From: Muribaculaceae bacterium
GTDB lineage: Bacteria; Bacteroidota; Bacteroidia; Bacteroidales; Muribaculaceae
Direction of reading: 5' to 3'
DNA: 46,038 nt
NCBI GenBank assembly: GCA_017651515.1
Contig: JAGCCU010000081.1
Location: 1 to 46,038 of the forward strand
Positions 28,198 to 44,255 of this stretch are shown here, in pieces. Below the pieces are notes generated by a model that saw only the letters and a list, made by a program, of their open reading frames with translations, searched no databases and was not told the DNA's origin. Within the stretch, counting starts at the first letter, position 1, and the number at the start of each line of letters is the position of its first letter. The translations under genes and the position numbers were made by a program.

Positions 28198-28205
28198 TAT
28201 CTTTG
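28198..28205 (+). promoter_or_regulatory. -7 box TATCTTTG of the DUF2975 operon
   Basis: TATCTTTG lies 32 bases before the ATG at 28238. The rest of 27961-28237 holds the rarA terminator and A/T-rich DNA without a gene. Confidence 0.5.
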
Positions 28206-28237
28206 CAGCAGATTTTCAACAAACAAATTTTATCTTT

Positions 28238-28720
28238 ATGAAAAAGACATCAATTAAAACTCTCAAATTTGTGTGCGTTTTGGCACTCATTGGAATTATC
28301 ATGTGGATGGTTTTTTATGCCATTCAAACCTATTTTGTTTTGACCACGGGCAATGGTAATGGAGTGATAAGCTGGGGATCTCCGCGCATGGGGCTCAAGT
28401 TGACTCTATTTGTAATAAATCGTACCACTATTTTCTTGTTGGCGGGATTGATGGCCGCATTTGTAATCAACATTCTCAAATATTTAAGAGGAGGAACGAT
28501 TTTTAATCGTGCTAATGTGGTACTTTTATGGATTATGACGATTTTATTGCCGATTCACTCGTTTGTAAGCGACAATATGGGTATCGCTTGTTCACCATCG
28601 GAGCATTTTAATTTACTGCTAACCGATTCTCCGTTTATTTATGCGATTGTATCACTCATTGTAGCATTGCTTTACAAGTTGGCATACGACGCTGCCGAGG
28701 AACAGAAGTTAACCATCTAA
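28238..28720 (+). CDS. DUF2975-like membrane protein
   Basis: 160 aa with four hydrophobic segments (about residues 10-30, 58-80, 92-112 and 130-150). A conserved-looking LRGGTIFNRANVVLL follows TM2, the usual DUF2975 pattern. Genes of this family often precede a small YozG-like Xre regulator, as here. The role is unknown; a membrane partner of the regulator is a common inference. Confidence 0.7.
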   Translation: MKKTSIKTLKFVCVLALIGIIMWMVFYAIQTYFVLTTGNGNGVISWGSPRMGLKLTLFVINRTTIFLLAGLMAAFVINILKYLRGGTIFNRANVVLLWIMTILLPIHSFVSDNMGIACSPSEHFNLLLTDSPFIYAIVSLIVALLYKLAYDAAEEQKLTI

Positions 28721-28733
28721 ATCGTATAGCCTT

Positions 28734-28949
28734 ATGATTATCGTGAATTTAGATGTTATGATGGCCCGTCGCAAGATGTCGCTCAATGAGCTGAGCGAAC
28801 GCGTGGGCATAACAATTGCAAATCTGTCGATCTTGAAGACAGGCAAGGCTAAAGCCGTACGCTTCTCAACACTCGACGCCATCTGTAAAGTGCTTGACTG
28901 CAGCCCTGGTGACATACTTGAATATCGTAATGAAGAAAACAACAATTAA
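28734..28949 (+). CDS. Small Xre/YozG-like transcriptional regulator
   Basis: 71 aa, a single helix-turn-helix: MARRKMSLNELSERVGITIANLSILK followed by RFSTLDAICKVLDCSPGDIL. This is the compact YozG/HTH_26 form. It is 13 bases after the DUF2975 gene and overlaps the start of the outer-membrane gene. Confidence 0.87.
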   Translation: MIIVNLDVMMARRKMSLNELSERVGITIANLSILKTGKAKAVRFSTLDAICKVLDCSPGDILEYRNEENNN

Positions 28950-29877
28950 AATTATATCAAAAATGAATGCAACATTAACATCTGTGGTTGTGGCAATGGC
29001 TATAGCATTGCCTAACCTGTGCTTCGCTCTTGAAGCATCATCGAGCGACACTGTAAAAGTTATCAACAATCCTGGCCAAGTAGTCATAACACAAAATGAT
29101 GAAGGAGTTATGCTCAAAGTGAACGGCAACGAAACAGACACTGCCTACTGCTATGAATATCGCGTGACACCCAGGTCCAAGTGGCGGTTGAACACTATGC
29201 AGCTCGAGGGCAGCGAGGTTGAATTCCGTCATCCTTTCTCAAAATGTGACAGTATCAATAAGAAAACGCACTTCATTGTTTTCATGAGTGACGTTTATTT
29301 TGGATGGGGTGGGCATAGCGTTGACGTCCCCGACCGTAACGTCGTCAAGAAATCAATGTCGGAAATTGGCGTACTCAACTTCATAGCTCTAGGTTATCAA
29401 TTCAACAAGAGTCGATACAGGGTTTCATTTGGTATGGGATTCAACTGGCATCGCTACGGGCTAAAGACCCCATACTTCTGGCTTCGTGACAACGATGGAA
29501 CACTTGGCTACGCCGAAATGACTGAACCTTTTGATAAGCATTATTCTACGTTGGTTGTGCGTTCAATGCAATTTCCGTTGATGTTTAACCAAGAATTAGG
29601 CAAGCATTGTAATGTAGCAATAGGTGGTATACTCAATTGGAACTGCTATGCCAGTTTCGTTAATTCCTATAGCATAGACAAAAGCGATTACAACGTCTCT
29701 ACCCGTGGACTTAACCAGCGCAAAATCTCTTTCGATGGTATTGCAATGTTAAGTTGGGGAGGACTAGGTGCATATTTCCGTTATGCACCACAATCAGTAT
29801 TTAAAACAGGATATGGTCCCGAGATGAAAAATCGTTGGACTATTGGCCTCATTATCCGTGGCTTTAATTGGAAATAG
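28930..29877 (+). CDS. Outer-membrane beta-barrel-like protein
   Basis: 315 aa. A signal peptide ends near LPNLCFA. After a polar N-terminal portion come alternating amphipathic strands ending in an aromatic residue, such as NFIALGYQFNKSRYRVSFGMGF and RWTIGLIIRGFNWK. The C-terminal Trp-Lys suits a small barrel. The start may be ATG 28930 (20-base overlap with the regulator) or ATG 28963 (cleaner signal peptide). The operon with DUF2975 and the regulator suggests an envelope-response unit. Exact function unknown. Confidence 0.65.
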   Translation: MKKTTIKIISKMNATLTSVVVAMAIALPNLCFALEASSSDTVKVINNPGQVVITQNDEGVMLKVNGNETDTAYCYEYRVTPRSKWRLNTMQLEGSEVEFRHPFSKCDSINKKTHFIVFMSDVYFGWGGHSVDVPDRNVVKKSMSEIGVLNFIALGYQFNKSRYRVSFGMGFNWHRYGLKTPYFWLRDNDGTLGYAEMTEPFDKHYSTLVVRSMQFPLMFNQELGKHCNVAIGGILNWNCYASFVNSYSIDKSDYNVSTRGLNQRKISFDGIAMLSWGGLGAYFRYAPQSVFKTGYGPEMKNRWTIGLIIRGFNWK

Positions 29878-29923
29878 ACCGAACAGTCAATTATAGGCAA
29901 TAAATAATTCTCCTATAAATAAA

Positions 29924-29971
29924 ATGCGCTGATTTCAAGCATTTTAACTTGACAATCAGCGTATTTCCTTT
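29924..29971. terminator. Hairpin terminator between the OMP gene and the tRNA remnant
   Basis: ATGCGCTGATT-TCAAG pairs with CTTGACAATCAGCGTAT (about 14 pairs, one bulge), followed by TTTCCTTTT. On the minus strand it also lies just after the tRNA-Pro 3' end, so it was probably the tRNA terminator too. Confidence 0.6.
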
Positions 29972-29975
29972 TCAG

Positions 29976-30017
29976 TCGGGATGACTAGATTCGAACTAGC
30001 GACCCCACGCCCCCCAG
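29976..30017 (-). repeat. tRNA-Pro(GGG) 3' half: probable attachment site
   Basis: Read on the minus strand, this is the anticodon loop CTGGGGG (anticodon GGG), the 3' anticodon stem GCGTG, variable loop GGGTC, T arm GCTAG-TTCGAAT-CTAGT, acceptor 3' strand CATCCCG and discriminator A. The 5' half that should lie just to the right (a CACGC stem and D arm) is absent. That is what remains at the distal junction after an element integrates into a tRNA gene and restores the tRNA at its other end. No second copy is seen inside the window. Confidence 0.75.
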
Positions 30018-30064
30018 ACTTCAAGAATACCACCTCAAGGTAGGTGTTATACAATTAGTTAGAA

Positions 30065-30508
30065 TCACATATTATTCAGTCGCTCGTCTAGTCGCTCGCT
30101 TAGACGAGCGACCTCTATTTTTAACTGTTCGTTCTCGGCTTCCAGTCTCTCAATTTTTTCCTCTTTCTTCTTAAGAAGATCCAAGAAATTTGAGACAATT
30201 GCTTGCTCGGGAGAAGCTGCACTTGCCATGTCAGCCACATCAGGAATAGAATCGTTTGCCTGGTCTACTCCTTTGGCTCGTTTGTTCATCTTCTTTTTGA
30301 GGTTGGGATTGGCTACTTCACTTACATAGTCAGTGATGTTTTCGACTCCGAGAACCGAGGCAACTTTCTCAATAAATGCCTCTGGAGCTGATGCTTTTCC
30401 ACGCTCTATCACGGAGACGAAACCTTGAGGATAACCGGTCAGTTCCGCAACTTTTACTTGCGAAATATTTTTTTCCGACCTAATCCTTTGTAAGTCAAGA
30501 ACTCGCAT
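30065..30508 (-). CDS. Xre-family repressor with C-terminal coiled coil
   Basis: 147 aa. The N-terminal helix-turn-helix is RIRSEKNISQVKVAELTGYPQGF then VIERGK. Residues 110-145 form a strong heptad coiled coil (LLKKKEEKIERLEAENEQLK). It lacks a LexA-type peptidase domain, so induction would not be by self-cleavage. Divergent from the Cro-like gene with a perfect-spacing promoter, it fits the lysogeny repressor. The 3' end encodes a 12-base inverted repeat. Confidence 0.82.
   Translation of the reverse strand: MRVLDLQRIRSEKNISQVKVAELTGYPQGFVSVIERGKASAPEAFIEKVASVLGVENITDYVSEVANPNLKKKMNKRAKGVDQANDSIPDVADMASAASPEQAIVSNFLDLLKKKEEKIERLEAENEQLKIEVARLSERLDERLNNM
30079..30112. repeat. Perfect 12-bp inverted repeat at the repressor 3' end
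   Basis: GTCGCTCGTCTA at 30079-30090 and TAGACGAGCGAC at 30101-30112 around a 10-base loop that begins with a third GTCGCTCG. It lies inside the last codons of the repressor gene, 62 bases from the tRNA remnant. It may be a terminator stem or a recombinase arm site. Confidence 0.6.
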
Positions 30509-30551
30509 AATGGTGTTAATATAAGCGTAAAAATTTGTTCATAATTTCTTG

Positions 30552-30573
30552 CTTATATAACAAAAAATATAAG
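30552..30573. promoter_or_regulatory. Candidate operator, CTTATA/TATAAG
   Basis: CTTATA at 30552-30557 and TATAAG at 30568-30573 form an inverted pair in the divergent switch region, immediately before the TACATTTG box at 30574-30581. A further TATAAG half-site is at 30520-30525. Confidence 0.45.
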
Positions 30574-30581
30574 TACATTTG
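30574..30581 (+). promoter_or_regulatory. -7 box TACATTTG, candidate early promoter
   Basis: Matches TAnnTTTG on the + strand and points at the Cro-like gene, with a leader of about 115 bases. It is flanked by the operator-like repeat at 30552-30573. Confidence 0.45.
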
Positions 30582-30628
30582 CAGTCCCGATTTTGTTACA
30601 TCATGCAAGAATTGTCTCTTTGACGCTG

Positions 30629-30659
30629 CAAAGTTACAAACAAGTTTTGATATAACAAA
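30629..30659 (-). promoter_or_regulatory. Repressor promoter
   Basis: On the minus strand TTTG (30659-30656), exactly 19 bases, then TAACTTTG (30636-30629): full consensus. The leader to the repressor start is about 115 bases. Confidence 0.7.
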
Positions 30660-30661
30660 AT

Positions 30662-30676
30662 TTATAAGGCTTATAA
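30662..30676. promoter_or_regulatory. Candidate operator, TTATAAG-G-CTTATAA palindrome
   Basis: A perfect 15-base palindrome adjacent to the upstream end of the repressor promoter and sharing its half-site with the repeats at 30520-30525 and 30552-30573. Likely bound by the repressor or the Cro-like protein (inference). Confidence 0.5.
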
Positions 30677-30702
30677 TTTCTTTTATAATTCATTTTTTTC
30701 TT

Positions 30703-30951
30703 ATGACACTTAGAGAATACTACCAATCGCTTAAGTATCAGCCATCTCCAGCGGCAACCTTTGTTAAGGAAATAGCCGCCCTATGCAATAGAACGGAGAT
30801 AGCTGTGAGAAAGTGGCTCGCTGGCGACGCTGCGCCTGATGCTTTTCTCCAAGAGAAAATCTCTGCTCATTTAGACATTCCAGTCGATGAGCTGTTCCCG
30901 AAGTCTGTGTCCAACAATAACCCCAGGAGTGATGGTGACGATAGAACCTAA
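30703..30951 (+). CDS. Cro-like helix-turn-helix protein
   Basis: 82 aa. LREYYQSLKYQPSPAATFVK is followed by ALCNRTEIAVRKWLAGDAAP, a helix-turn-helix with the KWL pattern of Cro/YdaS-like proteins, then an acidic Asn/Arg-rich tail. ATG 30703 is chosen because upstream codons are an A/T-rich leader that contains the operators. It is first in the rightward early operon. Confidence 0.75.
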   Translation: MTLREYYQSLKYQPSPAATFVKEIAALCNRTEIAVRKWLAGDAAPDAFLQEKISAHLDIPVDELFPKSVSNNNPRSDGDDRT

Positions 30952-30958
30952 AATCAGC

Positions 30959-31129
30959 ATGGCAGGTCGCTATACAATAGAGGAAACCTGCAAACTTCTA
31001 GGTATGCATCGAAGCACCCTGCATCGCTATACGGCGAAAGGCAGGATTCGCTGTGGAGTGCGACGTTCAACCATGCGGAAGTTCTATCTCGGCAGTGAGA
31101 TTCTTCGCTTCTGGAAAGCTCAGTTGTAA
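30959..31129 (+). CDS. Excisionase/MerR-like small HTH protein
   Basis: 56 aa. YTIEETCKLLGMHRSTLHRY then TAKGRIRCG is the winged-helix HTH_17/excisionase pattern. Such proteins bend DNA at attachment sites or act as regulators. An earlier in-frame ATG at 30932 would add nine residues and overlap the Cro-like gene; the domain itself starts at 30959. Confidence 0.75.
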   Translation: MAGRYTIEETCKLLGMHRSTLHRYTAKGRIRCGVRRSTMRKFYLGSEILRFWKAQL

Positions 31130-31131
31130 CT

Positions 31132-31980
31132 ATGCCGGGGTATGTGTTTTTACATAGGGACATCGACCGTCATTGGGTTTGGTCAGATGGACGCACTGCC
31201 CACCGATGGATGGACTTGATTATTCAAGCCGCATGGGAGAATAAGACAACTTTTTTCGGTGGTGTTCGAATTGAGCTGAAACGTGGGCAGCTTGTAACAA
31301 CCACAAGGCTGCTAATGGCTAGATGGAGAACCAATCCGAAAATGGTGTTGAAAGTCCTTGATATGTTCGAGAAAGATAAGATGATTCGCTGCAAAAAACT
31401 CAGCGATATGACGATAATTACCATCTGTAATTTTGACGCTTATCAGAGCAATGTGAACACCTCTTTTGACCAAGAAAGCTATCGTGTATTTTCAGCAGAA
31501 ATTGAGGGAGCTGGGAAGCACGAGAGGAAGCGTCAAAGGAAACAGACTAAAGAAAATAATAAAGAGCAAGAAAACAAAAAATCAAAAACAACAACTGTTG
31601 TAGAGAGCGCGCCTACCCACGAGGAGGTTTTTGAAGATTTTTTTAATGCTCAAATAGCTGTTGAGACTTTCTGCAAGAATGAATCAATAGACCTTGAGAC
31701 GTGCAAACAACTAGCGCAAGAAGTATTGAATGATTGGGTACTGAGAGACGAAGTCCATCAGACATTGAAAGATGGAAGAGAGCATCTGCTCAATCAGTTG
31801 AGAATAAAAATATCCATTTATAAACGAGAACAAAAAAGAAAGCATGATGTTTTGGAGAAAAAAGGAACCGGCTCGCATAAACAAGACAGCCGAGGAATGG
31901 AGAGCGGAGCTGGAGGAGGGAGTGAAACAAATCCTCTCGCGGGGGTTAAGCACTACACCGCAGACCTTACCAGAGATTGA
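31132..31980 (+). CDS. DnaD-like replication initiation protein
   Basis: 282 aa. The N-terminal winged-helix domain reads FLHRDIDRHWVWSDGRTAHRW, then GQLVTTTRLLMARWRTNPKMV, a pattern shared by phage replisome organisers (DnaD/O-like). A Lys/Gln-rich linker follows at about 125-165 and a helical C-terminal domain. Its last 137 bases overlap the helicase loader gene in another frame. It probably recognises the element's origin (inference). Confidence 0.78.
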   Translation: MPGYVFLHRDIDRHWVWSDGRTAHRWMDLIIQAAWENKTTFFGGVRIELKRGQLVTTTRLLMARWRTNPKMVLKVLDMFEKDKMIRCKKLSDMTIITICNFDAYQSNVNTSFDQESYRVFSAEIEGAGKHERKRQRKQTKENNKEQENKKSKTTTVVESAPTHEEVFEDFFNAQIAVETFCKNESIDLETCKQLAQEVLNDWVLRDEVHQTLKDGREHLLNQLRIKISIYKREQKRKHDVLEKKGTGSHKQDSRGMESGAGGGSETNPLAGVKHYTADLTRD

Positions 31981-32587
31981 TTTTGAATTGGAGAGGCAAA
32001 GATTAAACGGTGCTTTTGCCAAAGTTGAACCTCGATTCGACCCCAAAAGAATTGACAAGAATGTCGTTGACTCAATCTTCGCATGGATTTGGCGCAAAGA
32101 TGAGTTCAACAAACTTAATCTCGATTATGACAAAGGTTTGTTCTTATATGGCCCTCTAGGGCTTGGCAAAAGCCTTACCATGTTTGCCCTGCGGCAATAC
32201 ATGAACTGGGTTAAGGCTCATTATGAGCAAAAGCGAGACGACTATCGCCTTTGCGCTTGGATGAAATCTGCCAGTGAGTTAGCTAACATTTATGCGGTTG
32301 ACGGACAACCGGCATTGTTAAGTTATGCCGCACATGATGTTAATCTGGTGATTGACGAGTTCGGGCGGGAACCTTGCCCTGCTAAATACTTCGGAACTGA
32401 AATGAACGTATTGCAATTCCTTTTGCAGCTTCGCTATGACCATAGACGAAGCAGCATCACTCACGTCACCACCAATATGAAGCTTGAAGACATCGCCCCA
32501 AAATATGGAGCGTATGTTGCTGACCGCTGCATTGAGATGTTCAATTTCATTGAATACAAAGGCCAAAGTTTCCGTAAAACCCTTTAG
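31844..32587 (+). CDS. DnaC/IstB-like helicase loader ATPase
   Basis: 247 aa AAA+ ATPase: Walker A GPLGLGKS at about residues 102-109, Walker B VNLVIDEFGREP, sensor HVTTNMKLEDI and an Arg near the C-terminus (DRCIEMFNFIEYKG). It would load the replicative helicase at the site opened by the DnaD-like partner. There is no internal ATG before the ATPase core, so the 137-base overlap with the upstream gene is probably real unless a GTG near 31922 is used. Confidence 0.85.
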   Translation: MMFWRKKEPARINKTAEEWRAELEEGVKQILSRGLSTTPQTLPEIDFELERQRLNGAFAKVEPRFDPKRIDKNVVDSIFAWIWRKDEFNKLNLDYDKGLFLYGPLGLGKSLTMFALRQYMNWVKAHYEQKRDDYRLCAWMKSASELANIYAVDGQPALLSYAAHDVNLVIDEFGREPCPAKYFGTEMNVLQFLLQLRYDHRRSSITHVTTNMKLEDIAPKYGAYVADRCIEMFNFIEYKGQSFRKTL

Positions 32588-32616
32588 CCGTCTTTCAAAA
32601 TATGATTTACCGCCAC

Positions 32617-32624
32617 TAAATTTG
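32617..32624 (+). promoter_or_regulatory. -7 box TAAATTTG
   Basis: Fits TAnnTTTG and ends 8 bases before the ATG at 32633, giving a near-leaderless transcript. Confidence 0.4.
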
Positions 32625-32632
32625 TGCATCTA

Positions 32633-33145
32633 ATGGCAGCAAATTCATTCCCAAATATGAGCGATATAGTGATTTACTTGAAGTTGGACCCATATCTGGC
32701 TCAGTGGCTCACACATGAGCACGGCGGCAATCCTGTCGTTTTCCCGAAGAACTCGGCTGAAAACGACATATTGGAGTTAGGCTTGACTCTCAAGCCATAT
32801 TTTGCCGCACCTAATGAGCCAGGCATTGACAAGGTTCCCATTTCGGTGCCATACTTCAAGAGCAAAGATGTACGCTCATACAACTACCTGCCCCCTAAAG
32901 GACGCAGGGCACTTGCGAGGTGCATACGCACTCGCTTTGTGATTTCTATGTGGAATGATCTTTTCAAATTCGGTAATATCGGCAAGCGCAAACAGGATAT
33001 TATTTGGACATGGATGGAAGCGCATGGCATTGAGGCAACGGACACAAATTGGAATACCATTGCCAAAATCTATATGCGGAAACGTTCCGTCTACCGCAAG
33101 CAGCAATGGCGAGATGCTAGAAAGCCTCATCCCAAATCTCCTTAA
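32633..33145 (+). CDS. Conserved-looking mobile-element protein, unknown function
   Basis: 170 aa. It begins (from Met9) SDIVIYLKLDPYLAQWLTHE, then NPVVFPKNSAENDILELGL, YNYLPPKGRRALARCIRT, and a basic C-terminus MRKRSVYRKQQWRDARK. This layout is familiar from hypothetical proteins of Bacteroidales phages and transposable elements, but I know no function. Starts at 32624 (GTG), 32633 and 32657 are all possible; 32633 follows the promoter box best. Confidence 0.65.
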   Translation: MAANSFPNMSDIVIYLKLDPYLAQWLTHEHGGNPVVFPKNSAENDILELGLTLKPYFAAPNEPGIDKVPISVPYFKSKDVRSYNYLPPKGRRALARCIRTRFVISMWNDLFKFGNIGKRKQDIIWTWMEAHGIEATDTNWNTIAKIYMRKRSVYRKQQWRDARKPHPKSP

Positions 33146-33225
33146 TAAAGGTTAAAAGTCATACGACTTAGTCCCCTCGAAAATAAACAATGCCACGCAC
33201 TGCCACACACTTTATTTTTTAGATT

Positions 33226-33651
33226 ATGATGAACAGTTATTCACTCCCTGGTATAAAATTCATCGGTTTTGTAGGTGCCGAGAATTTACAACGCGAGATG
33301 ATGTTCAAGCACCTCGCTGGAATTCCTGTGGGCGTTTTCACAGACATAACGCCAATAGCGTTTTGCGGTGTGCCCACGTGCGAGGCTGTTTCAACATACA
33401 ATAAGAATGGCCGCATTGAGCAGACTACGCTGCGCTTCAGGACCCTCGATGTTTTGCCGACATCCCGACACGTCGCTTTTGTCGTCACTGACTGCAATAA
33501 CCAGTCATACATCATCGGGCAACATGAGAAGCCCCGGCCTATAGTAAAAGTCACTCGCGACACTGGAACGCCAAATGGCGATCCAGCGGTCGCCACGGTC
33601 GAAATCACGCTCTATGCGCAGAAATCGCTTATCCCATGCGCAATCACATAA
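33226..33651 (+). CDS. Hypothetical element protein
   Basis: 141 aa, small beta-rich protein: GIKFIGFVGAENLQREMMFK, GVFTDITPIAFCGVPTCE, LDVLPTSRHVAFVVTDCN, VATVEITLYAQKSLIPCAIT. No signal or membrane segment. It is the last gene before the gene-free block, 80 bases after its neighbour. Function unknown; a structural or DNA-binding role cannot be told apart. Confidence 0.6.
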   Translation: MMNSYSLPGIKFIGFVGAENLQREMMFKHLAGIPVGVFTDITPIAFCGVPTCEAVSTYNKNGRIEQTTLRFRTLDVLPTSRHVAFVVTDCNNQSYIIGQHEKPRPIVKVTRDTGTPNGDPAVATVEITLYAQKSLIPCAIT

Positions 33652-33694
33652 GCAGAAAGAGGTAGAATTTTCTCATAAAGTGAATTTTTAAGGT

Positions 33695-33722
33695 TAAACA
33701 AATCAGCGTATAAATTTGTTTA
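33695..33722. repeat. Perfect 9-bp inverted repeat over a promoter box
   Basis: TAAACAAAT at 33695-33703 and ATTTGTTTA at 33714-33722 around 10 bases. It spans the TAAATTTG box at 33711-33718, so it could be an operator. Confidence 0.5.
33711..33718 (+). promoter_or_regulatory. -7 box TAAATTTG for the candidate giant RNA
   Basis: TAAATTTG would start transcription near 33725, exactly where the first hairpin of the gene-free block begins. No clear TTTG at the standard distance. Confidence 0.4.
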
Positions 33723-33724
33723 GG

Positions 33725-33761
33725 CGAGACCGTCGCTGTGACAGCGGCGGCTCGTTGTTTT
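33725..33761 (+). terminator. Strong hairpin, terminator of early operon or first stem of RNA
   Basis: CGAG + CCGTCGCTG pairs with CAGCGGCGG + CTCG (13 pairs, one bulged A, one U.G) around loop TGA, followed by TTGTTTTA. On the other strand the U.G becomes a C-A mismatch, so the + strand is the folding strand. Confidence 0.6.
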
Positions 33762-34400
33762 ATCACCTCACCTCATGTAAAACGTGATTAGTGGCGGAGC
33801 AGCCATTCCGTGCAGTCGTCCATATCTCTTGCTGACAGCCTTGATGTCGTAATGTAATCAGAATGGTGTCGGGCTAAGCGTAATTGACGCACACAATCCT
33901 CGCTGCCCTGCTATTCTTCGCTTACTTGACGCAATATCACGGTCCTCATTGACTGCCGAAGTCAGTTGCCTTCTTGCTGGAAAGCATCGGCCTTCTGCTC
34001 ATCACGGTTCTCATCGGCTCGGCGGCGTGCATTGAATCCTGCTCTTTGAACTCTCGCTGAATGACTCGGTTGCCCTTGTATCTTGATGTACTCCTTTGCT
34101 CTATGCGGTGAACGGCAGACTTGATGAACTAATCGGCAATTATGCTCAAGGGAGTGCTCCGTGGCGCACAAAGTGCGTGCAGCGAATGTTCCCACGCATA
34201 GGGCACTTCCTCGGGTGGGCGATTGCCCAATCCACACCTTCATTTTCTCCTTCGTGATTGTGTTCTCGGCTTTATGGCTCATTGGACGGTGCTTTGTTGG
34301 GCACAACCGCTTACTGCTTCTTTGTGATTGCTGCGCTCTCCATGACAAAATCTATCGTTACACATTCGCTCCTTGTGGCCATCAGCCCTTATTGGCTTTT
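33725..34400 (+). ncRNA. Candidate giant structured RNA in the phage-like element
   Basis: About 676 bases with no convincing gene on either strand but dense helices. There is a 5' hairpin at 33725-33754 and a small hairpin at 33951-33963. Three nested stems lie at 34150-34157/34203-34210, 34160-34164/34192-34196 and 34165-34169/34173-34177. A hairpin is at 34217-34228. The end stem is 34377-34381/34393-34397 followed by T residues. CGTGAT and ATCACG elements (33783, 33936, 34001, 34253) can form two long-range helices. Three separate stems need a G.U pair on the + strand that would be A-C or C-A mismatches on the minus strand. Size and phage context resemble classes such as ROOL or GOLLD, but identity is not established. 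Confidence 0.4.
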
Positions 34401-34406
34401 ACGCTG

Positions 34407-34435
34407 CAAAGTTAATGCGCCGTCTTAACACGCAA
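34407..34435 (-). promoter_or_regulatory. Minus-strand promoter-like signal in the gene-free block
   Basis: On the minus strand TTG, 18 bases, then TAACTTTG (CAAAGTTA at 34407-34414 on the + strand). The box and 6 flanking bases are identical to those of the repressor promoter (ACGCTGCAAAGTTA). It would transcribe leftward across the candidate RNA. Confidence 0.35.
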
Positions 34436-34476
34436 GGACAGGCTCTGTTGACTTCGAAAATAATGAAAAAATTTGA

Positions 34477-34528
34477 GACCGTGCCGGCTAAAATTTTTCG
34501 GGCCCGCAAGGGGTAATTTTTTTCGGTC
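34477..34528 (+). other. Structured leader upstream of ardA
   Basis: GACCG 34477-34481 pairs with CGGTC 34524-34528. Inside, AAAATT 34490-34495 pairs with AATTTT 34515-34520, and CCC/GGG close a GCAA tetraloop at 34506-34509. It sits 105 bases before ardA and could be a terminator for upstream transcription or a leader element. The remainder of 34401-34632 shows nothing else. Confidence 0.35.
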
Positions 34529-34632
34529 AATCCTGGCTAAGTGTTCGCCGTCGCACTTTGCAGGCAGTGTAAAAGCTCAAATAAGAGCGATTACAAGTTC
34601 ACTGATTGTTTCACAATAAATTTTTCACTGTC

Positions 34633-35295
34633 ATGGAGAAAAATCACAATTTTTCAGAAGCCGCAAGCGGTGCTCAAAGCACCCAGGCACAAGAGCCTGT
34701 AAAGGCTGTCGAGAACAATAACAATCCCTTCGGAGTGGAGGAAGTGGATTTGGAGCTGTACATCGCTCACCCCGATGAGGAAGTCCCCGCTCTCTACGTA
34801 GGTACATACGGGGCATACGCCGCCGGTTCGCTCCGCGGAGCATGGGTCTCACTTGAGGCTTGCGCCGATTACGAGGAGTTCATGATGGTCTGCCGTTGGA
34901 TTCACCGCTTTGAGGCAGATCCGGAGTACATGTTCCAAGATTTCATGGGCTTCCCCGGTCAGTTCTACCGCGAGGGTTCTTTCAGCGAGCAGGATTTCGA
35001 CAATGCACGCGAGTTCGCCGAGCTTGATGAGGATGAGCAGGAGGCTTTCGAGGCTTTCCTCGAGTGCAAGTACGGCAGTTACACTGACTGCGACAGTCTC
35101 TTTAGTGAGTTCCGTGATGCCTATTGCGGAAAGTTCGACAGCGAAGAAGAATATGCCGAGCAGCTTGCTGAGGATTGCGGCTATTTCGCTGAGATGCCCT
35201 CGTACCTGCGTAATTACTTTGACATCAAGGCTTTCGCAAGAGATGTTTTCATGGATGGCTTCACATACTGGAATGGCTACGTCTTCCGCGATTAA
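34633..35295 (+). CDS. ardA: Antirestriction protein ArdA
   Basis: 220 aa, very acidic. The ArdA domain (about residues 45-215) starts with ALYVGTYGAYAAGSLRGAWV and includes EDEQEAFEAFLECKYG and an acidic C-terminal third; a polar extension of about 40 residues precedes it. ArdA mimics bent B-form DNA and blocks type I restriction enzymes. It is more usual in conjugative elements than in a capsid-coding one. The earlier TTG at 34606 is not needed. A strong terminator follows. Confidence 0.9.
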   Translation: MEKNHNFSEAASGAQSTQAQEPVKAVENNNNPFGVEEVDLELYIAHPDEEVPALYVGTYGAYAAGSLRGAWVSLEACADYEEFMMVCRWIHRFEADPEYMFQDFMGFPGQFYREGSFSEQDFDNAREFAELDEDEQEAFEAFLECKYGSYTDCDSLFSEFRDAYCGKFDSEEEYAEQLAEDCGYFAEMPSYLRNYFDIKAFARDVFMDGFTYWNGYVFRD

Positions 35296-35314
35296 TCACT
35301 AATTGTTTCGCATC

Positions 35315-35342
35315 GGGTGAGGTGTCAAAGCCTCACCCTTTT
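35315..35342 (+). terminator. ardA terminator
   Basis: GGGTGAGG and CCTCACCC form a perfect 8-pair stem with an 8-base loop, followed by TTTT. Confidence 0.85.
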
Positions 35343-35381
35343 CACAAGTGGTGTGTCTTTTACCGCAGAGATACACCATTT

Positions 35382-35389
35382 TAATTTTG
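35382..35389 (+). promoter_or_regulatory. -7 box TAATTTTG, capsid operon promoter
   Basis: TAATTTTG lies 23 bases before the ATG at 35413, after the ardA terminator. T-rich bases (TTTT at about 35358-35361) lie near the -33 position. Confidence 0.55.
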
Positions 35390-35412
35390 TGGCAAATTTA
35401 GATTACATCACT

Positions 35413-36477
35413 ATGCCACAGACCGAATATAATCTCCACCTCAAAGGCTACGTCGGCGGTTACGACTTCGACCGCAACTATGTGGACTATGTGCTTGCCC
35501 AACGAAAGGACAAGCCGGTCCACGTGCTGATTGACAGCCTCGGCGGCTCACTCGCAACCGCCCTCTCCATCGCCAGTGCCTTCAAGAACCACGGCGATGT
35601 CACTGTCCACTTCGTTGGAATGAACGCCAGCGCGGCCACCATCGCTTCGCTCGGTGCCAAGCACATCTCCATCGACGCTTCGGCGATGTATCTGGTGCAC
35701 AAGTGCAGCACCGAGTTCTTCGAATGGGGAAGCCTGAATGCCGACCAGCTCGCAACTGTCCGTGACAACTGCGAGGCGGCAATCCGTGATCTGAACAAAC
35801 TCGACAACAATGTCGCCTCGATGTACTCCGCCAAGTGCAGCAAGCCTCAAGCCGACCTGCTCGGCCTCATGCGAGAGGGCGGCTGGCTCACTGCGAAAGA
35901 GGCGAAGGAATGGGGATTTGTCGATGAGGTGACCGACCTCGGAGAGTCCAAGCCGGTGCTCACCGACGCTGTGGCTTCGGCCATGGCGGCGGCTGGAATG
36001 CCCATTCCCAATGTGCCCACCGACAGCAAGGAAACGCTCTTCGCTCGTTTCCTTGCCTCAATCGCCTCGCTTTTCAAGCCCGCCAAAGCCGAAGCCGCTC
36101 CTAATCCCCAGGACGACATCGACGACAAACAAGTTAGTCATAACGTGAATACACCATCTTCCAACACTCTCAAACCATCCGCAACCATGCTCCAGTCCCT
36201 TTCGCTCGTGGGCGAAGTCCTCAACATCGAGGGCTTCGCCGTGGGCGAGGACGGTGTGACGCTCACTGCCGAGCAAGCCATCGCCATTGAGCGTGCGCTC
36301 GCTGAACGCGACAAGCGCAACACCGAACTCGCCGAGCAGGTCACGGCTCTCAAGGCCGCCCCTGCTGAATCTTCGCAAACGGTGGTCGACGCTGCAAAGC
36401 AGACCGCCAAGTCTCCCTTTGACGAGTTCGCCGGAAAGGTGAACTCCGCAAAGCAGCTGTTCAACCTCGTTCCCTAA
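35413..36477 (+). CDS. ClpP-type head maturation protease fused to a scaffold-like region
   Basis: 354 aa. Residues 1-205 are a ClpP/S14 fold: VLIDSLGGS, nucleophile Ser73 in VGMNASAATIASLG, and His96 in MYLVHKCS, followed by LTAKEAKEWGFVDEV. Residues 215-354 are Ala/Pro-rich then coiled (AIAIERALAERDKRNTELAEQV) and end in KQLFNLVP, the layout of a capsid scaffold. An internal ATG at 36187 (MLQSLSLVGEV) could make a separate scaffold. ATG 35413 is chosen over 35317, which lies in the ardA terminator. The major capsid gene follows after 27 bases. Confidence 0.85.
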   Translation: MPQTEYNLHLKGYVGGYDFDRNYVDYVLAQRKDKPVHVLIDSLGGSLATALSIASAFKNHGDVTVHFVGMNASAATIASLGAKHISIDASAMYLVHKCSTEFFEWGSLNADQLATVRDNCEAAIRDLNKLDNNVASMYSAKCSKPQADLLGLMREGGWLTAKEAKEWGFVDEVTDLGESKPVLTDAVASAMAAAGMPIPNVPTDSKETLFARFLASIASLFKPAKAEAAPNPQDDIDDKQVSHNVNTPSSNTLKPSATMLQSLSLVGEVLNIEGFAVGEDGVTLTAEQAIAIERALAERDKRNTELAEQVTALKAAPAESSQTVVDAAKQTAKSPFDEFAGKVNSAKQLFNLVP

Positions 36478-36504
36478 CCCAGTCACTAATAATCATCTAT
36501 AATC

Positions 36505-37473
36505 ATGGCAGGACAACTAACTATCACCCCCTCGCTGGAACAGTTCCAAGAGGCGGCAACCAAATGGCGACCCGAGCTGCTCATGCAGCCCATCATCGGG
36601 TGCCAGGACACCATTCAGCACATGACTCCCCGACCCGGCATCCGCTACAAGGAGAACGTGGGAGCCATCAGCGGCGACGCGCAGTTCGGGCCCTACAAGC
36701 CCTCCCGCTCGACCGACTTCAATCTCAATGTGAAGTACAGAACCCTTGAGACATACATGGGTTCAGTACACTGCAAGTTCGAACCGAACTCGGCAGCTTC
36801 CACTATCCTCGGTTACATGGCCGCCACCAAAGGCGACGGCCAGATGAAGGCTCCCACGGCACTGCATGTGCTGACTTACATCGCAAAGAGCTTGTCGGGC
36901 AATCTCAACGATGCCATCTGGAACGGCGAGCGCAACCCCAGCGGTGACACCACACATGACTTGTTCGACGGATTCGACACCATCACGCAGATGGAGATTG
37001 ACGCTGACGAAATCAGTGTGGCGAACATGAACTACATGAAGCTCACCGAGGAAATCACCGCAGCCAACGCGCTCGATGTGGCAAAGGAAATCCTCTATTC
37101 GCTCGACCCTCGTCTGCGCGCCCAGGATCTGAACATGTACTGCTCGCAGGACTTCGCCGACAAGTACAACGAGGCCATGCTGCTCACCCACGGAGGCATC
37201 AACTACTACAACCAGTTCAACCAGAACTGCGTCGAGGGCAGCAACGGCAAACTGCACATCATCCCGCTGTTCAACAAGGCCGACAGCAAGTTCATCCACG
37301 TCACGCCAAAGAGCAACATGCTCGTGGGCTACGACCAGATGGGCGACGTGGAAAGCGTCATGGTAAAGGAGTACGAGCCCTTCATCCTCTCGTACATCGC
37401 CACCATGTTCTTCGGAGTGCAGTTTGAGTCCATCGACTACCGCAAGCTCAAAGTCATCGAACTCGCAGACTAA
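36505..37473 (+). CDS. HK97-like major capsid protein
   Basis: 322 aa. Position directly after the protease/scaffold gene, length, and the late domain pattern support it: LYSLDPRLRAQDLNMYCSQD, then HIIPLFNKADSKFIHVTPKSNMLVGYD, then VKEYEPFILSYIATMFFGVQFESIDYRK. These correspond to the A-domain and the closing strand of HK97-fold coat proteins. There is no large N-terminal delta domain because scaffolding appears to be encoded upstream. Confidence 0.75.
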   Translation: MAGQLTITPSLEQFQEAATKWRPELLMQPIIGCQDTIQHMTPRPGIRYKENVGAISGDAQFGPYKPSRSTDFNLNVKYRTLETYMGSVHCKFEPNSAASTILGYMAATKGDGQMKAPTALHVLTYIAKSLSGNLNDAIWNGERNPSGDTTHDLFDGFDTITQMEIDADEISVANMNYMKLTEEITAANALDVAKEILYSLDPRLRAQDLNMYCSQDFADKYNEAMLLTHGGINYYNQFNQNCVEGSNGKLHIIPLFNKADSKFIHVTPKSNMLVGYDQMGDVESVMVKEYEPFILSYIATMFFGVQFESIDYRKLKVIELAD

Positions 37474-37509
37474 GCACACCCAGTATTAACAGAATAATGA
37501 TTTGAAACA

Positions 37510-38310
37510 ATGGCAACGAATTGTACCAGTATCATCAGATCGCTCGCTTGGTGTCAGGGAACTCCCGAACTCCCTGGCATCAAACGGCGCATATACTACA
37601 TCGGAAAAGACCAGATCGTCAAGTGGCCTACGCTCAACCATGACACGAGGGGGCGTCTCGTCACGGCGGCTTACGCGGGCAACTTCGTGCTCGCTGCCGA
37701 CGCGACATGGAAGTACATCGACATCCTGCCCGACAAGTCGCAGCTCACCAGTGAGGCGCAGGGCGAGTACCCAAGCATGACGCAGCTGAACAAACTCACC
37801 GCTGTTCACCCCGGCGTGGGAATAGAGGCTTCGGCTCTTGCCGCCTATGTGAACAACAACGACTGCGTTTTCCTTGTCGAGACCGTCAGAGGAAAATACC
37901 GCGTCGTAGGCAGCGAGGCATGGCAGGTCAAGTCGACCGTGGCGCAAGACCTCGGTCAAGGTGCCACCGGCACCACCAGCACTACGCTCTCGGTGGAGGC
38001 CACCGACGAGTGCCCCGCTCCATTCTACTTCGGCAAGATCGAGACCGAGGACGGCATCATCCAGCCCGAACAAGCCCAGCCGGCTAACAGTGGCGTAGCC
38101 ATCGAGTTTGACGGCTCCACCTACACCCATGACAACATGGATGACTTGTTCTCCGCTGTCGCAGAGGACACCGACATGACGGCTGCCGAGGTAGAAGCCC
38201 AGTATGAGGCGATTCTCGAACAATATGCAGGTGACGCGGCACTCGCCGCAGCAGACTTCATCGAGCGTGTCGCCGAATGGAGACAAGCCGCTCACTCTGC
38301 CAACCCCTAA
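37510..38310 (+). CDS. Unknown, virion structural candidate
   Basis: 266 aa, no recognised domain. The N-terminal half contains short beta-rich segments (RRIYYIGKDQIVKWP, GNFVLAADATWKYIDILPD). The middle reads FLVETVRGKYRVVGSEAWQV then a Gly/Thr-rich stretch TSTTLSVEATDECPAPFYFG. The C-terminal 80 residues are acidic and helical. Encoded 36 bases after the major capsid gene and 3 bases before the phosphoribosyltransferase gene. A tail-tube, head-decoration or capsid-accessory role is possible; none is proven. Confidence 0.55.
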   Translation: MATNCTSIIRSLAWCQGTPELPGIKRRIYYIGKDQIVKWPTLNHDTRGRLVTAAYAGNFVLAADATWKYIDILPDKSQLTSEAQGEYPSMTQLNKLTAVHPGVGIEASALAAYVNNNDCVFLVETVRGKYRVVGSEAWQVKSTVAQDLGQGATGTTSTTLSVEATDECPAPFYFGKIETEDGIIQPEQAQPANSGVAIEFDGSTYTHDNMDDLFSAVAEDTDMTAAEVEAQYEAILEQYAGDAALAAADFIERVAEWRQAAHSANP

Positions 38311-38313
38311 GGA

Positions 38314-38997
38314 ATGGCTGACACCATTTCTTCGCAGGTCGAGGGTGCTGCCGTCGATATGGGAGAGATCATGCGCGACATGACCTTTCCTGTAGCCGAC
38401 CTCAGTTCCCTCGATTTGTCGTTAGGCGAGGCTGCACCCCAGGGCCGCGCCCAACAAAAGGATTTGTTTGCCGTGCAGCAGCGCAAGGCGTGGGACAAAT
38501 CCACCGAGGCACGATGCGATTTCTCCTACAAGCTGCGCCTGACTCGCCGTAGCGACATCAACTTCATCTCCATCTGGCAAAAGTCACTGTACGGACGCAC
38601 GCTCACCGACATCAAGGGAGACCCCGATATGGTGGAGTTTTTTGCCAAGAGCATTTGCCCGGTCATCAAGGAGATGCTCGGGTACAACCTCAAAGAGGGT
38701 GACTGGTGCATCTGCACCTCGCCGAAACGCCGTCACAAGGTCAAGAACTTTGCGACGCTCATCAGTGAGAGACTCGCGCAAATGCTGGAGATTCCGTTCT
38801 ACGAGGATGTGGCATTTTGCCACACAAAGCAGCGGGTGAACGCGGTTTTTGAACTCAATGTCTTGCCCAAAGAGCATAACATCATAGTCTATGATGACTT
38901 TGTGACAACTGGGCAGACATTGGCGGCGATGCGCAGACTACTGCAGCCGCTCGGCAAAAACCTAGTCTGGTTTACCAATGTGAACAACAAACTCTGA
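38314..38997 (+). CDS. ComF-like phosphoribosyltransferase
   Basis: 227 aa. The PRPP-binding loop is canonical: HNIIVYDDFVTTGQTL at residues 188-203, with the two Asp and the TTGQT loop. Upstream, TSPKRRHKVKNFATLISERL at 135-154 matches the ComF-type arrangement before the loop. The first 60 residues are acidic and unlike known families. It sits between the structural candidate and a coiled-coil gene, in the same operon as the capsid and terminase. Substrate unknown: nucleobase salvage, NAD-related chemistry or a non-enzymatic role are all open. Confidence 0.75.
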   Translation: MADTISSQVEGAAVDMGEIMRDMTFPVADLSSLDLSLGEAAPQGRAQQKDLFAVQQRKAWDKSTEARCDFSYKLRLTRRSDINFISIWQKSLYGRTLTDIKGDPDMVEFFAKSICPVIKEMLGYNLKEGDWCICTSPKRRHKVKNFATLISERLAQMLEIPFYEDVAFCHTKQRVNAVFELNVLPKEHNIIVYDDFVTTGQTLAAMRRLLQPLGKNLVWFTNVNNKL

Positions 38998-39002
38998 ATA
39001 AT

Positions 39003-39716
39003 ATGGACGCTAAATTTACACAGCAGATACAAGATTGGCTCAATACGCCAGCGGAGCAACGAGACAATGCCCAGGGCGCATTGCTCCTGCTCAGACTCAC
39101 TGGCAACCAAATCCAGTACCGCAATCTGATGGCGAACCCTAAGCGGAACGCACAGTTCATCGAGTACCAGTTGCAGAAACGGCTCAACTTCCGCTTGCAG
39201 AAGCTGACCCATGATCAGGTCGAGGAGATGCAGCAGCAGGTCGATGTCATCGCCAAAAAAATCACGCCTAATACCGGCGAGAGTTTCAAGCAAGGCAAGC
39301 GTGACGACCACGACCAGCTGCCCGACGAGATACAGGCCCTCTATGTCGAGAACCTGGGCATCGTGCAGAAGATGCGCGAACTCCACATGAAGTTGAGATC
39401 GCTCTCTCTCGAAAAAGCACCATGCCCCGACAGTGAGAGATACCCGTTCCTCAAGGAACTTATCGCTCTCGACAAAAGGCTGCACTCGAATTGGGAAACC
39501 TATGACCACTACACCGGCACCGACGGTGAGGCGGTCATGACGGCTGACGCTCGCGAGGAAAGCCGAAAGGCTGTCCGATTGATAAACCTTGCAAAAGGTC
39601 GCTACGCTAAAAAGCCAAGCGAGGAACTGAAAGCTCAGATCCTCGCGCTTTACGGCAAGGTTATCAATCCAACCGACAAGCTTGCCGCCGAACTCAAAGA
39701 TTTGGGAATCCTTTGA
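39003..39716 (+). CDS. Unknown coiled-coil protein
   Basis: 237 aa, highly helical and charged. Residues 20-90 and 95-140 are Gln/Lys/Glu heptad-like (LQKRLNFRLQKLTHDQVEEM, ALYVENLGIVQKMRELHMKL). A Lys-rich helical C-terminus follows. No catalytic motif. Placed 5 bases after the phosphoribosyltransferase gene and conserved in orientation with the packaging genes; could be a scaffold, a capsid-size factor or a packaging accessory. Confidence 0.55.
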   Translation: MDAKFTQQIQDWLNTPAEQRDNAQGALLLLRLTGNQIQYRNLMANPKRNAQFIEYQLQKRLNFRLQKLTHDQVEEMQQQVDVIAKKITPNTGESFKQGKRDDHDQLPDEIQALYVENLGIVQKMRELHMKLRSLSLEKAPCPDSERYPFLKELIALDKRLHSNWETYDHYTGTDGEAVMTADAREESRKAVRLINLAKGRYAKKPSEELKAQILALYGKVINPTDKLAAELKDLGIL

Positions 39717-39720
39717 GCTT

Positions 39721-39757
39721 CGTAGCCGTCAAAAACATTGCTACGCTTTGGTTTTGA
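39721..39757 (+). terminator. Weak hairpin between the coiled-coil and PLD genes
   Basis: CGTAGC 39721-39726 pairs with GCTACG 39740-39745, and TCAAAA 39729-39734 can alternatively pair with TTTTGA 39752-39757. This is the only gap over 50 bases in the late operon, so it may mark an internal attenuator. No TAnnTTTG box follows on the + strand. Confidence 0.3.
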
Positions 39758-39800
39758 CTCTTTGAAATCTCGGAAATTGGCACAAAAGTAGTGTTTTCCT

Positions 39801-40319
39801 ATGAAACGCAGTGCGTCTATAGAGGATTTCTTGAAGCCGATACGTGAGAAACCGTATCAGGCTTATCTCTCCAACGCCTTGCAGGTGGCGGACGTGCTCG
39901 ACTGGGTGCTGCAACAACTCGGCAAGTCCGAGGTGTGGCAGACATCTTTCTCAATCAGCGAGGAGTTCATTCGCCGATTGTACTTCATCGAGAAGTCCGG
40001 CCTCGTCACTCGCTTCAACCTCGTGCTCGACCACAAGGCCACCAACAAGACGCTCAAGCTCTGGGCGTTCATCACCCAAGTAATCTCCACCACCTACCTT
40101 GCTGACAACCACAGCAAGGTGCTGCTGGTCAAGAGCGAGCGTGACGAAGTGGTCAGCATCATCACATCGCAGAACCTCACGCGAGGCAACCGCTCGGAGA
40201 GTGCCGTGGTCACTACTGACCCTGAACTGTTCGCCACGCTCCATTCTCAAGTTCTAGATTTAATCCGCAATCATTCCGTTCCTTTGAACGACCTGTTTGC
40301 TCAAAGACTTGCCCAATGA
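39801..40319 (+). CDS. PLD-like (HKD) phosphodiesterase family protein
   Basis: 172 aa with a single HKD-type half-site: His104 and Lys106 in NHSKVLLV, then SIITSQNLTRGN with Ser123/Asn125 and Glu133, the layout of phospholipase D-like nucleases that dimerise. The N-terminal half is helical with hydrophobic segments. It overlaps the next small gene by 4 bases (ATGA). A DNA end-processing role in packaging or defence is inference. Confidence 0.65.
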   Translation: MKRSASIEDFLKPIREKPYQAYLSNALQVADVLDWVLQQLGKSEVWQTSFSISEEFIRRLYFIEKSGLVTRFNLVLDHKATNKTLKLWAFITQVISTTYLADNHSKVLLVKSERDEVVSIITSQNLTRGNRSESAVVTTDPELFATLHSQVLDLIRNHSVPLNDLFAQRLAQ

Positions 40320-40591
40320 CGTACACTGAAGAACAACTGAAGCAGATTGAGCAGTTCGCCTCAATCTACCTCAAAATATCGGACATGGCGGTGATTCTCG
40401 GCATACCTGCCGAAGTTCTCCGCGAGGACATCGCTGACCAGTGCAGCGAGGTGAGCCAGCATTATCGACGGGGCAAAGCCGCTTCGAAAGTGAAACTCCT
40501 GCATCAAGAAATGATGCTGGCGCAAGTCGGCTCACCGCTCGCCATCGAGAACACTCACCGCAACCTGCTCGATATGGAAGATGATGAGTAA
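40316..40591 (+). CDS. Small HTH protein, terminase small subunit candidate
   Basis: 91 aa. EEQLKQIEQFASIYLKISDMA then ILGIPAEVLREDIADQ is a helix-turn-helix-like start, as in many small terminase subunits, followed by an acidic tail. It lies one gene before the large terminase and is translationally coupled to the PLD-like gene. Small subunits recognise the packaging site on viral DNA. Confidence 0.55.
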   Translation: MTYTEEQLKQIEQFASIYLKISDMAVILGIPAEVLREDIADQCSEVSQHYRRGKAASKVKLLHQEMMLAQVGSPLAIENTHRNLLDMEDDE

Positions 40592-40593
40592 CC

Positions 40594-42838: not shown

Positions 42839-42850
42839 TCCTACGGATTA

Positions 42851-42866
42851 TGGCACATTTTTTGCA
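42851..42866 (+). promoter_or_regulatory. Sigma-54-like promoter element
   Basis: TGGCAC, 5 bases, TTGCA matches the -24/-12 consensus exactly. It follows the terL stop by 12 bases and lies 166 bases before the ASCH-like gene. It also forms part of an inverted repeat with AAAAAATGCCA near 42907-42918. Confidence 0.3.
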
Positions 42867-42968
42867 GTATTGTTGTATAAATCACCGATTATCCTTACCT
42901 TTTTGAAAAAAATGCCACTATTAAGTTTGTTTAACTTGACAGTGCGATATTTGTGCACATGTCTATAA

Positions 42969-42976
42969 TAATTTTG
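42969..42976 (+). promoter_or_regulatory. -7 box TAATTTTG for the ASCH-like gene
   Basis: TAATTTTG, 56 bases before the ATG at 43033. A TTTG at 42951-42954 is only 14 bases away, so the spacing is poor. Confidence 0.4.
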
Positions 42977-43032
42977 TTGCTTGGGAGTAAGGCGTAATAT
43001 TGTGCCGAAACCTTTTAACTCTCTTAAAATCA

Positions 43033-43782: not shown

Positions 43783-43825
43783 TTGATTTTTGACTGCAAA
43801 GTGCCTCATATCCAAAAAATATGTG

Positions 43826-44119: not shown

Positions 44120-44255
44120 GTTCCCAGTAGAAGGCCTTTCCTGCATTTTGCAGACAACATATAACTTAACGACTTACGAACTCCTTTGTAGTGATACAAG
44201 CTTTGGTCGGCTTTCTGGCACTGCATTGGAGTTTGTTTTATAGACATTCGTGACT

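Follow-up and report, generated by a model that had tools for sequence, protein, structure and literature searches.

A mirror arm that co-evolves with ardA and carries an asymmetric promoter head in Bacteroidales mobile elements: a candidate single-strand-dependent transcription unit

The Frpo stem-loop is described as reconstituting the -10 and -35 boxes of a promoter that is switched off by conversion to double-stranded DNA (PMC9849209, PMC11541004), and as driving early, transient expression of leading genes from the entering single strand, with ardA of ColIb-P9 named among the early-expressed genes (PMC9849209). The locus studied here resembles the Frpo/ssi promoters of F and ColIb-P9, as these are described, in that a hairpin formed by one strand rebuilds both boxes upstream of early genes (PMC9849209, PMC11541004). 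It differs from them in several features: the boxes are the -33 and -7 boxes of Bacteroidota rather than -35 and -10 boxes; the TA of the -7 box is usually bulged, the gene side lacking a TA; pairing continues through the whole gene to the terminator in 20 of 64 ardA loci; and many of the carriers are capsid-type elements.

Other described systems share single features with this locus. Quasi-palindromes attributed to template switching likewise have inverted arms that stay matched over time (PMC8794818), whereas most ardA loci show capped perfect runs, with a whole protein gene facing an arm that has an asymmetric promoter. Coding palindromes in the mitochondria of Nematomorpha also place inverted repeats over protein-coding sequence; they are described as perfect, with both arms protein-coding (PMC6649704), whereas here one arm is non-coding, gene-length and imperfect. 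ArdA genes are found on plasmids, ICEs and phages, and the protein encoded here is likewise a Pfam ArdA; however, control loci outside Bacteroidales, one on an enterobacterial plasmid (L111, z 2.8) and two in phages (L112, z -1.1; L113, z -1.9), lack a mirror arm. The large RNAs ROOL and GOLLD are alike only in size and mobile-element setting, and differ in that the present sequence has no Rfam match and pairs with the adjacent gene. Among the matches listed from the open full-text literature, we recognised neither such a unit nor a single-stranded DNA promoter in Bacteroidota. The promoter module is best seen as a single-stranded DNA promoter with new features; we know of no counterpart to the gene-length co-evolving arm.

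An inverted counterpart of the ardA transcription unit

The window, a stretch of 46,038 nucleotides from a Muribaculaceae bacterium, contains at 33725-34400 a block that a preliminary description had taken for a free-standing giant plus-strand RNA of the ROOL/GOLLD type. We find instead that this block is an imperfect inverted counterpart of the ardA transcription unit, lying head-to-head with it, and that the only strict promoter found in and around it reads the minus strand (Table 1). Local alignment of the reverse complement of the block with the ardA unit scores 487, as compared to a maximum of 133.6 in 200 dinucleotide shuffles and 93 for the other strand. The alignment runs the whole length of the block, through promoter region, leader, coding region and stop codon and into the start of the terminator, so that pairing with the arm extends ~34 nt beyond the ardA stop codon. 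The gene itself is a member of the ArdA domain family (PF07275, E=5e-31, score 108.9 against a cut-off of 27).

Table 1. Features of the arm-ardA locus and its flanks in the window
Feature	Position	Strand	Basis
141-aa gene, function unassigned	33226..33651	+	ORF list; conserved just upstream in relatives
Stem and T-rich tail, probable terminator of the upstream gene	33726..33762	+	Sequence; scan of L036; outer edge of the arm
Mirror arm of the ardA unit, promoter to terminator, inverted and indel-riddled	33759..34437	-	Local alignment
Arm-side -7 box TAACTTTG	34407..34414	-	TA, part of an ATTA bulge, has no partner on the ardA side; DNA fold
Arm-side -33 box CCTTG	34433..34437	-	Promoter scan and pairing analysis
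Loop between the arms, partly structured	34438..34531		Fold; sequence and alignment coordinates
Counterpart of the promoter on the ardA side, CCTGG ... ACTTTG, without the -7 TA	34532..34560	+	Pairing analysis
ardA, anti-restriction protein, 220 aa, partner of the arm	34633..35295	+	Pfam ArdA PF07275; PHROG anti-restriction protein
Probable ardA terminator	35315..35343	+	Sequence; first half still matched by the outer end of the arm

Several parts of the preliminary description hold. The block has no credible gene: its longest open frame, of 128 aa on the minus strand, has no Pfam match, and the arm contains many indels and no long open frame. A coding reading of the block was rejected, its frames being broken. 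The block is, as had been proposed, non-coding and strongly structured and lies within a mobile element, and its pairing shows covariation among relatives. The first stem, with a G.U pair that works on the plus strand only, was found again at 33726-33753, followed by a T-rich stretch. This stem is best taken for the plus-strand terminator of the gene that precedes it. Its counterpart in the relative L036 is followed by TTTT and is called a terminator by a simple scan, which misses the copy in the window. The promoter box that had been placed at the first stem is there in part: a plus-strand TAAATTTG box directly precedes the stem, but no strict plus-strand promoter does, and a strict scan that began 250 nt outside the arm and ended 350 nt beyond ardA returned only one promoter, which reads the minus strand. 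The homologue of the ardA terminator hairpin was scored as a terminator in L036 and not in the window. The product of the 141-aa gene upstream has neither a Pfam nor a PHROG match; homologues were seen in L002 and L004 by reading the sequence, and a cluster of ~141-aa proteins is present in 11 of 20 contexts.

Other parts of the earlier account were not confirmed. A self-contained folded RNA is not supported by the plus-strand RNA fold of the whole locus (-709 kcal/mol), which is made up mostly of arm:gene pairs and places 486 of 573 predicted pairs between the block and ardA. The right end, described as a stem followed by T residues, is an inverted promoter head, and an insensitive scan found no plus-strand terminator there. 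Covariance models of Rfam 15 gave no match on 33600-35400, even at E<=1, and a tRNA was the only Rfam match in the window. The plus-strand preference that had been drawn from wobble pairs is inconsistent across relatives. In the window itself 20 wobbles favour the plus strand and 13 the minus strand, and the wobble classes over 20 loci number 341 (gene A/arm G), 233 (T/C), 199 (G/A) and 188 (C/T). Fold energies favour the plus strand in 3/3 loci of the window group and the minus strand in 12 of 14 other loci. Wobble pairs thus give no consistent answer on plus- versus minus-strand RNA, and the strand is not decided by them.

When both sides of all 78 open frames of at least 100 aa in the window were scanned, z exceeded 8.1 only for ardA, for a frame inside ardA and for the frame in the arm. 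Among 687 tests of other genes in 20 related contexts, 21 gave z>10; judged by position, 17 of these overlap either the arm or ardA itself, and the other four comprise three paralogues in L147 and a low-scoring match in L146. The paralogues belong to a stretch of L147 (12162-15436, oriented) with inverted repeats among several paralogous open frames, possibly an invertible gene cluster. In the window, the frame at 20335-20910 (minus strand) shows weak inverted similarity to the sequence that follows it on its downstream side (z ~8).

We compared the block with 101 genomes of the genus, of which 24 match, the source genome included. Besides the latter, only G098 matches nearly the whole query (88%), the others matching in short pieces, mostly the ardA leader; a viral contig (L031) contains a further full copy. 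ArdA proteins from other genera of the family, with 38-46% identity to that of the window, are often encoded next to a full-length arm of their own. We called an arm full-length at z>=9 (dinucleotide shuffles) and a span of at least 80% of the gene, in loci with at least 900 nt upstream; by this threshold 44 of the 64 loci fall below, and the 20 that pass include three near-identical groups whose members are counted singly (L089/L090, L086/L088/L100 and L031/L036) and the weak L119 (z 9.2). Three loci are intermediate (L116, z 7.8; L105, z 6.0; L044, z 5.6) and the remaining 41 have z<5. Duplicates were collapsed and near-identical loci kept in this set, as in the set for the promoter head below, which needed at least 450 nt upstream; five ardA loci had been left out of an early count for short upstream sequence. 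Early z-scores for weaker arms in the genus of the window mostly vanish under dinucleotide shuffles, and we claim only the promoter hairpin there.

Co-evolution and interrupted pairing of arm and gene

In many elements the arm has stayed able to pair with its own ardA. When 22 arms were each compared with all 22 genes, 16 scored highest with their own; five of the exceptions (L036, L031, L090, L086 and L100) belong to groups with near-identical genes, and in the sixth (L116) the arm truly fits the genes of relatives better than its own. For the L116 arm (G198:C6) the better match is with the ardA of L086/L088/L100, which looks like a gene replacement that spared the arm.

We counted compensatory changes, in which both sides differ and the pair is kept, wherever the registers of gene and arm agree in two relatives. 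We found 6 such changes in L001/L036, 8 in L115/L117, 8 in L087/L093, 5 in L092/L126 and 15 in L089/L092, alongside 12, 14, 4, 7 and 12 gene-only changes at such sites, respectively; the expectation from the rates of arm change is ~5 in total for the five pairs, in which L092 is used twice and the registers lean toward pairing. Six other pairs gave 5 (L001/L031), 2 (L116/L086) and 0 (four near-identical pairs). A count of mirrored substitutions in which each arm is aligned to its own gene is biased upward, and less biased counts give lower numbers. When arms were aligned only to arms, a less biased procedure, mirrored changes were above expectation in 16 of 17 comparisons, for example 6 as compared to 1.2 in L001/L036 and 12 as compared to 3.2 in L087/L093, the exception being L094/L086 (4 as compared to 5.2). 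Most gene changes are unmirrored in this count, with 6 of 34 mirrored in L001/L036 and 12 of 55 in L087/L093.

L001 and L036 share 110 bulge columns as compared to 32 expected, and L087 and L093 share 63 as compared to 25, whereas L001 and L091 share 13 as compared to 16. Since bulges are common to close pairs and not to distant ones, the arm is old but turns over.

Perfect pairing is mostly capped in length. The longest exact match between arm and gene is 10–14 nt in 15 of 17 ardA loci, as compared to means of ~18–24 nt under simulated random decay, and in 13 of the 17 none of 40 simulations gave a longest match as short as that observed; this null is approximate, its event counts being taken from the alignment itself. 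In 7 of 20 loci the spacing of interruptions is significantly even, and pairing as a whole is of about equal density along the gene. The exceptions among the ardA loci are L091 (34 nt) and L089 (22 nt), and units over other genes, described below, have perfect runs of 34 (L194), 24 (L192) and 16 nt (L187). Long perfect tracts of the copying type are absent from the same 15 of 17 ardA loci and present in L091, L089, L192 and L194. With G.U pairs allowed, predicted RNA helices reach 24 bp even outside L091 and L089. The helix cap is not universal.

A promoter head that recurs at other genes

The head of the hairpin carries TTG-N16-22-TAnnTTTG, which we take to be the consensus form of a Bacteroidota promoter. 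Of 66 loci with 450 nt or more of upstream sequence, 52 have this form on the arm strand, and with a wider spacer 56 qualify. Pairing with the ardA side in the 52 loci is strongly asymmetric: the paired fraction is 0.96 for the -33 box, 0.92 for TTTG and 0.86 for the next 14 nt, as compared to 0.24 for the TA. Both letters of the TA are paired in only 3 of the 52 loci; pairing is incomplete in the other 49, mostly because some four bases are absent from the ardA side at this point. In 27 non-redundant loci the -33 box is paired in 24, the TA fully paired in 3, and the own side is the best partner in 19; when arm and gene sides of these loci were re-paired at random, none of 10,000 trials reached the observed sum.

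A canonical promoter stands on the arm side and is lacking on the ardA side. TAnnTTTG was absent from the plus strand within 400 nt upstream of ardA in the 42 loci listed, and no strict plus-strand promoter lies between the outer end of the arm and the ATG in any of 17 full-arm loci. A strict minus-strand promoter sits at the head of the hairpin in 15 of these 17, L092 and L093 being without one. The minus strand of the window, folded as DNA, forms the hairpin at -44.3 kcal/mol (z -5.3; none of 200 shuffles as good), with ATTA unpaired. As judged by sequence and predicted fold, one strand rebuilds both promoter boxes, as Frpo/ssi promoters do.

Hairpin promoters of this type are also found elsewhere, at a small number of genes. 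A scan of 185 strict promoters, from the window and 30 contexts, gave high hairpin scores at ardA and at two other genes, L136 (score 50) and L129 (40), which have the same box sequences and an unpaired TA; the highest shuffled control scored 40.5. Five other promoters outside ardA also exceeded 40.5, with sequences unlike the ardA type: L154 13609 (+), L137 1010 (-), L140 4407 (+), and 18042 (+) and 10253 (+) in the window. Exact searches of viral contigs with the first stem and with a fixed form of the leader returned nothing, but a gapped promoter motif did match, in 29 stretches of viral contigs; it also gave 31 sites in the family, spread over 26 of 297 genomes, the reversed motif giving 0, and with a stricter form a single site was found among 198 genomes sampled from the order. 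Of the 51 distinct sites, 36 serve ArdA. The hairpin partner beats the best of 50 shuffles in 40, the -33 box is paired in 47 and the TA is fully paired in 3. At least five of the 15 sites at other genes look like ordinary promoters (L170, L176, L186, L190 and L196).

Some of these other sites head mirror arms of their own. The gene of ~65 aa in L129 (the same as L192) faces an arm that runs to its terminator (z 20 for the unit, 12 for the coding part alone), and a unit over a 168-aa protein in L194 has an arm with z 12. In L181/L187, a unit upstream of a 116-aa protein has an arm with z 18–25, the 116-aa part giving 3–5, and its TA is paired. Weak arms accompany an 82-aa protein in L136 (z 5.6, coding 1.6) and a protein with MutS domain I in L166 (z 6, coding 1.6; PF01624, E=2e-26). 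The first gene under the arm of L181/L187, of ~70 aa, resembles by eye the gene of 65 aa in L192, and the two may form a second gene family that uses such units. In L166, MutS domain I stands alone, in a gene downstream of a hairpin promoter of the ardA-locus type.

Element setting and possible mechanisms

We next consider the elements that carry these units. Besides ArdA, the proteins scanned from the element in the window include DnaD/DnaC-like loaders, a terminase-like protein and a head maturation protease. None of them was recognised as belonging to a conjugation system; given head protease and terminase-like genes and no recognised conjugation gene, the DNA should enter cells double-stranded. 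The protease, terminase and primase clusters are present in 14, 12 and 10 of the first 20 contexts, respectively. ICE-type contexts were identified by shared gene clusters, with Pfam matches to TraO, TraM and TraJ in L149 and to TraG in L151 (one protein); in these contexts a shorter ardA has the promoter hairpin. The ICE relatives L095, L097, L102, L103 and L104, for which entry as single-stranded DNA is expected, have no long arm (z 0.0 to 2.1). Of the five ICE contexts listed, two (L150 and L158) have a fully paired TA and three (L149, L152 and L157) a half-paired one, so that the bulge is less clear there. In the window at ~28200-43800 and in L129-L142, with gene clusters in common, no tail gene was recognised in the scanned proteins, and such elements may be capsid-forming satellites.

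Given a mirror arm that co-evolves with its gene, mostly capped helices, an asymmetric promoter head and recurrence, we infer, at slightly less than even confidence, a hairpin promoter that would be active on single-stranded DNA, following a Frpo-like logic extended by a surrogate non-template strand. The template (minus) strand of ardA, when single-stranded, would fold back on itself, and the arm would replace the missing non-template strand. The fold would restore a canonical promoter, with a double-stranded -33 box, a -7 box on the arm strand and a TA already loosened, and from this rebuilt promoter RNA polymerase would copy the true ardA template. On double-stranded DNA, the ardA side would be without a proper -7 box and ardA expression would stay low, the arm promoter yielding only non-coding RNA. 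Along the gene, the long arm would pair again with the template in the wake of the polymerase, free the mRNA and present the terminator as a duplex, and the interruptions would protect the double-stranded palindrome from recombination, cutting and extrusion. A long arm acting as an RNA-displacing partner would be an extension beyond Frpo logic. It is possible, if somewhat doubtful, that there is a whole class of single-strand-dependent units in Bacteroidales mobile elements, each with a bulged hairpin promoter and a co-evolving gene-length arm, at ardA and at several other small genes, which would be read as whole units straight from the single strand.

The main difficulty for the single-strand reading is that the long arm occurs in capsid-type elements expected to deliver double-stranded DNA, whereas ICEs keep only the head; in capsid-type elements, single strands could come from replication or end resection. 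Capped runs are not directly predicted by this model. Our confidence in it is further lowered, and that in template switching slightly raised, by the paired or half-paired TA in ICE contexts and in L181/L187, and by the long perfect runs in two units over genes other than ardA. Also unfavourable to it are the 44 of 64 loci below the full-length threshold, the many unmirrored gene changes, the misfit of the L116 arm, the missing strict arm promoter of L092 and L093, and the long perfect runs of L091 and L089.

It is unlikely, though worth serious attention, that the outer arm has no function, with template switching re-copying an inverted duplication from the gene, deletions eroding it and selection acting on the promoter head only. 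Switching at inverted repeats is described as creating and restoring pairing arms (PMC8794818); the turnover of bulges with distance would agree with this, and the long perfect runs of L091, L089, L192 and L194 resemble recent copying. Yet copying should leave long perfect tracts, and runs are capped in 15 of 17 ardA loci; moreover, the spacing of events is significantly even in 7 of 20 loci, units of this kind recur over other genes, and a canonical promoter on the arm rather than on the gene side is the reverse of what pseudogene decay would give. We regard as decidedly unlikely a lock at the RNA level, in which a transcript reading through from the upstream operon, with the arm ahead of ardA, would fold into a ~700-bp interrupted hairpin that silences ardA, its short helices avoiding RNase III, with ardA expressed only from a start in the loop. 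The very stable plus-strand folds with mostly arm:gene pairs, the co-orientation of upstream genes with ardA in phage-like contexts and the excess of plus-strand wobbles in the window group all speak for such a transcript, and capped perfect runs would suit avoidance of double-stranded RNA. Against it stand the terminator-like stem before the arm in the window and L036, the energetic advantage of the minus strand in most loci outside the window group, and the G.U-containing predicted helices of up to 24 bp; it would also leave the conserved arm promoter and the loss of the TA on the ardA side unexplained.

The other explanations fare worse. A functional non-coding RNA from the arm promoter, of the same sense as the ardA mRNA and acting as a decoy or sponge, would account for the strict minus-strand promoter in 15 of 17 full-arm loci; it is improbable, however, since such an RNA is not complementary to the ardA mRNA and several distinct decoys would be required to account for the units over other genes. 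Had ardA been duplicated in inverted form just once, leaving what is now a dead pseudogene, an arm with many indels and no long open frame would be explained, but its changes should be independent of the parent, and tracking of the own gene across genera, compensatory changes, capped runs and a similar architecture on other genes make this very improbable. The orphan giant plus-strand RNA of the ROOL/GOLLD kind is hardly credible: stable folding and the plus-strand G.U of the first stem are in its favour, while the lack of an Rfam match at E<=1, the partnership with ardA and the orientation of the promoter argue against it.

None of the regulatory elements described among the literature matches listed resembles a gene accompanied by a co-evolving pairing strand of its own length, an arrangement that recurs at a few other genes. 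If the single-strand reading is true, this would be a full transcription unit for single-stranded DNA and would extend single-stranded DNA promoters to Bacteroidota, and the motif would find early, perhaps anti-defence, genes of mobile elements without knowledge of the protein. If the RNA or copying readings are true instead, the locus would still be a striking natural case of gene-scale compensatory evolution. Just downstream of the element in the window, with its anti-Type I protein, lies a gene for a Type I restriction methylase subunit (44250-45833, plus strand; N6_Mtase, E=1.7e-84, and HsdM_N).
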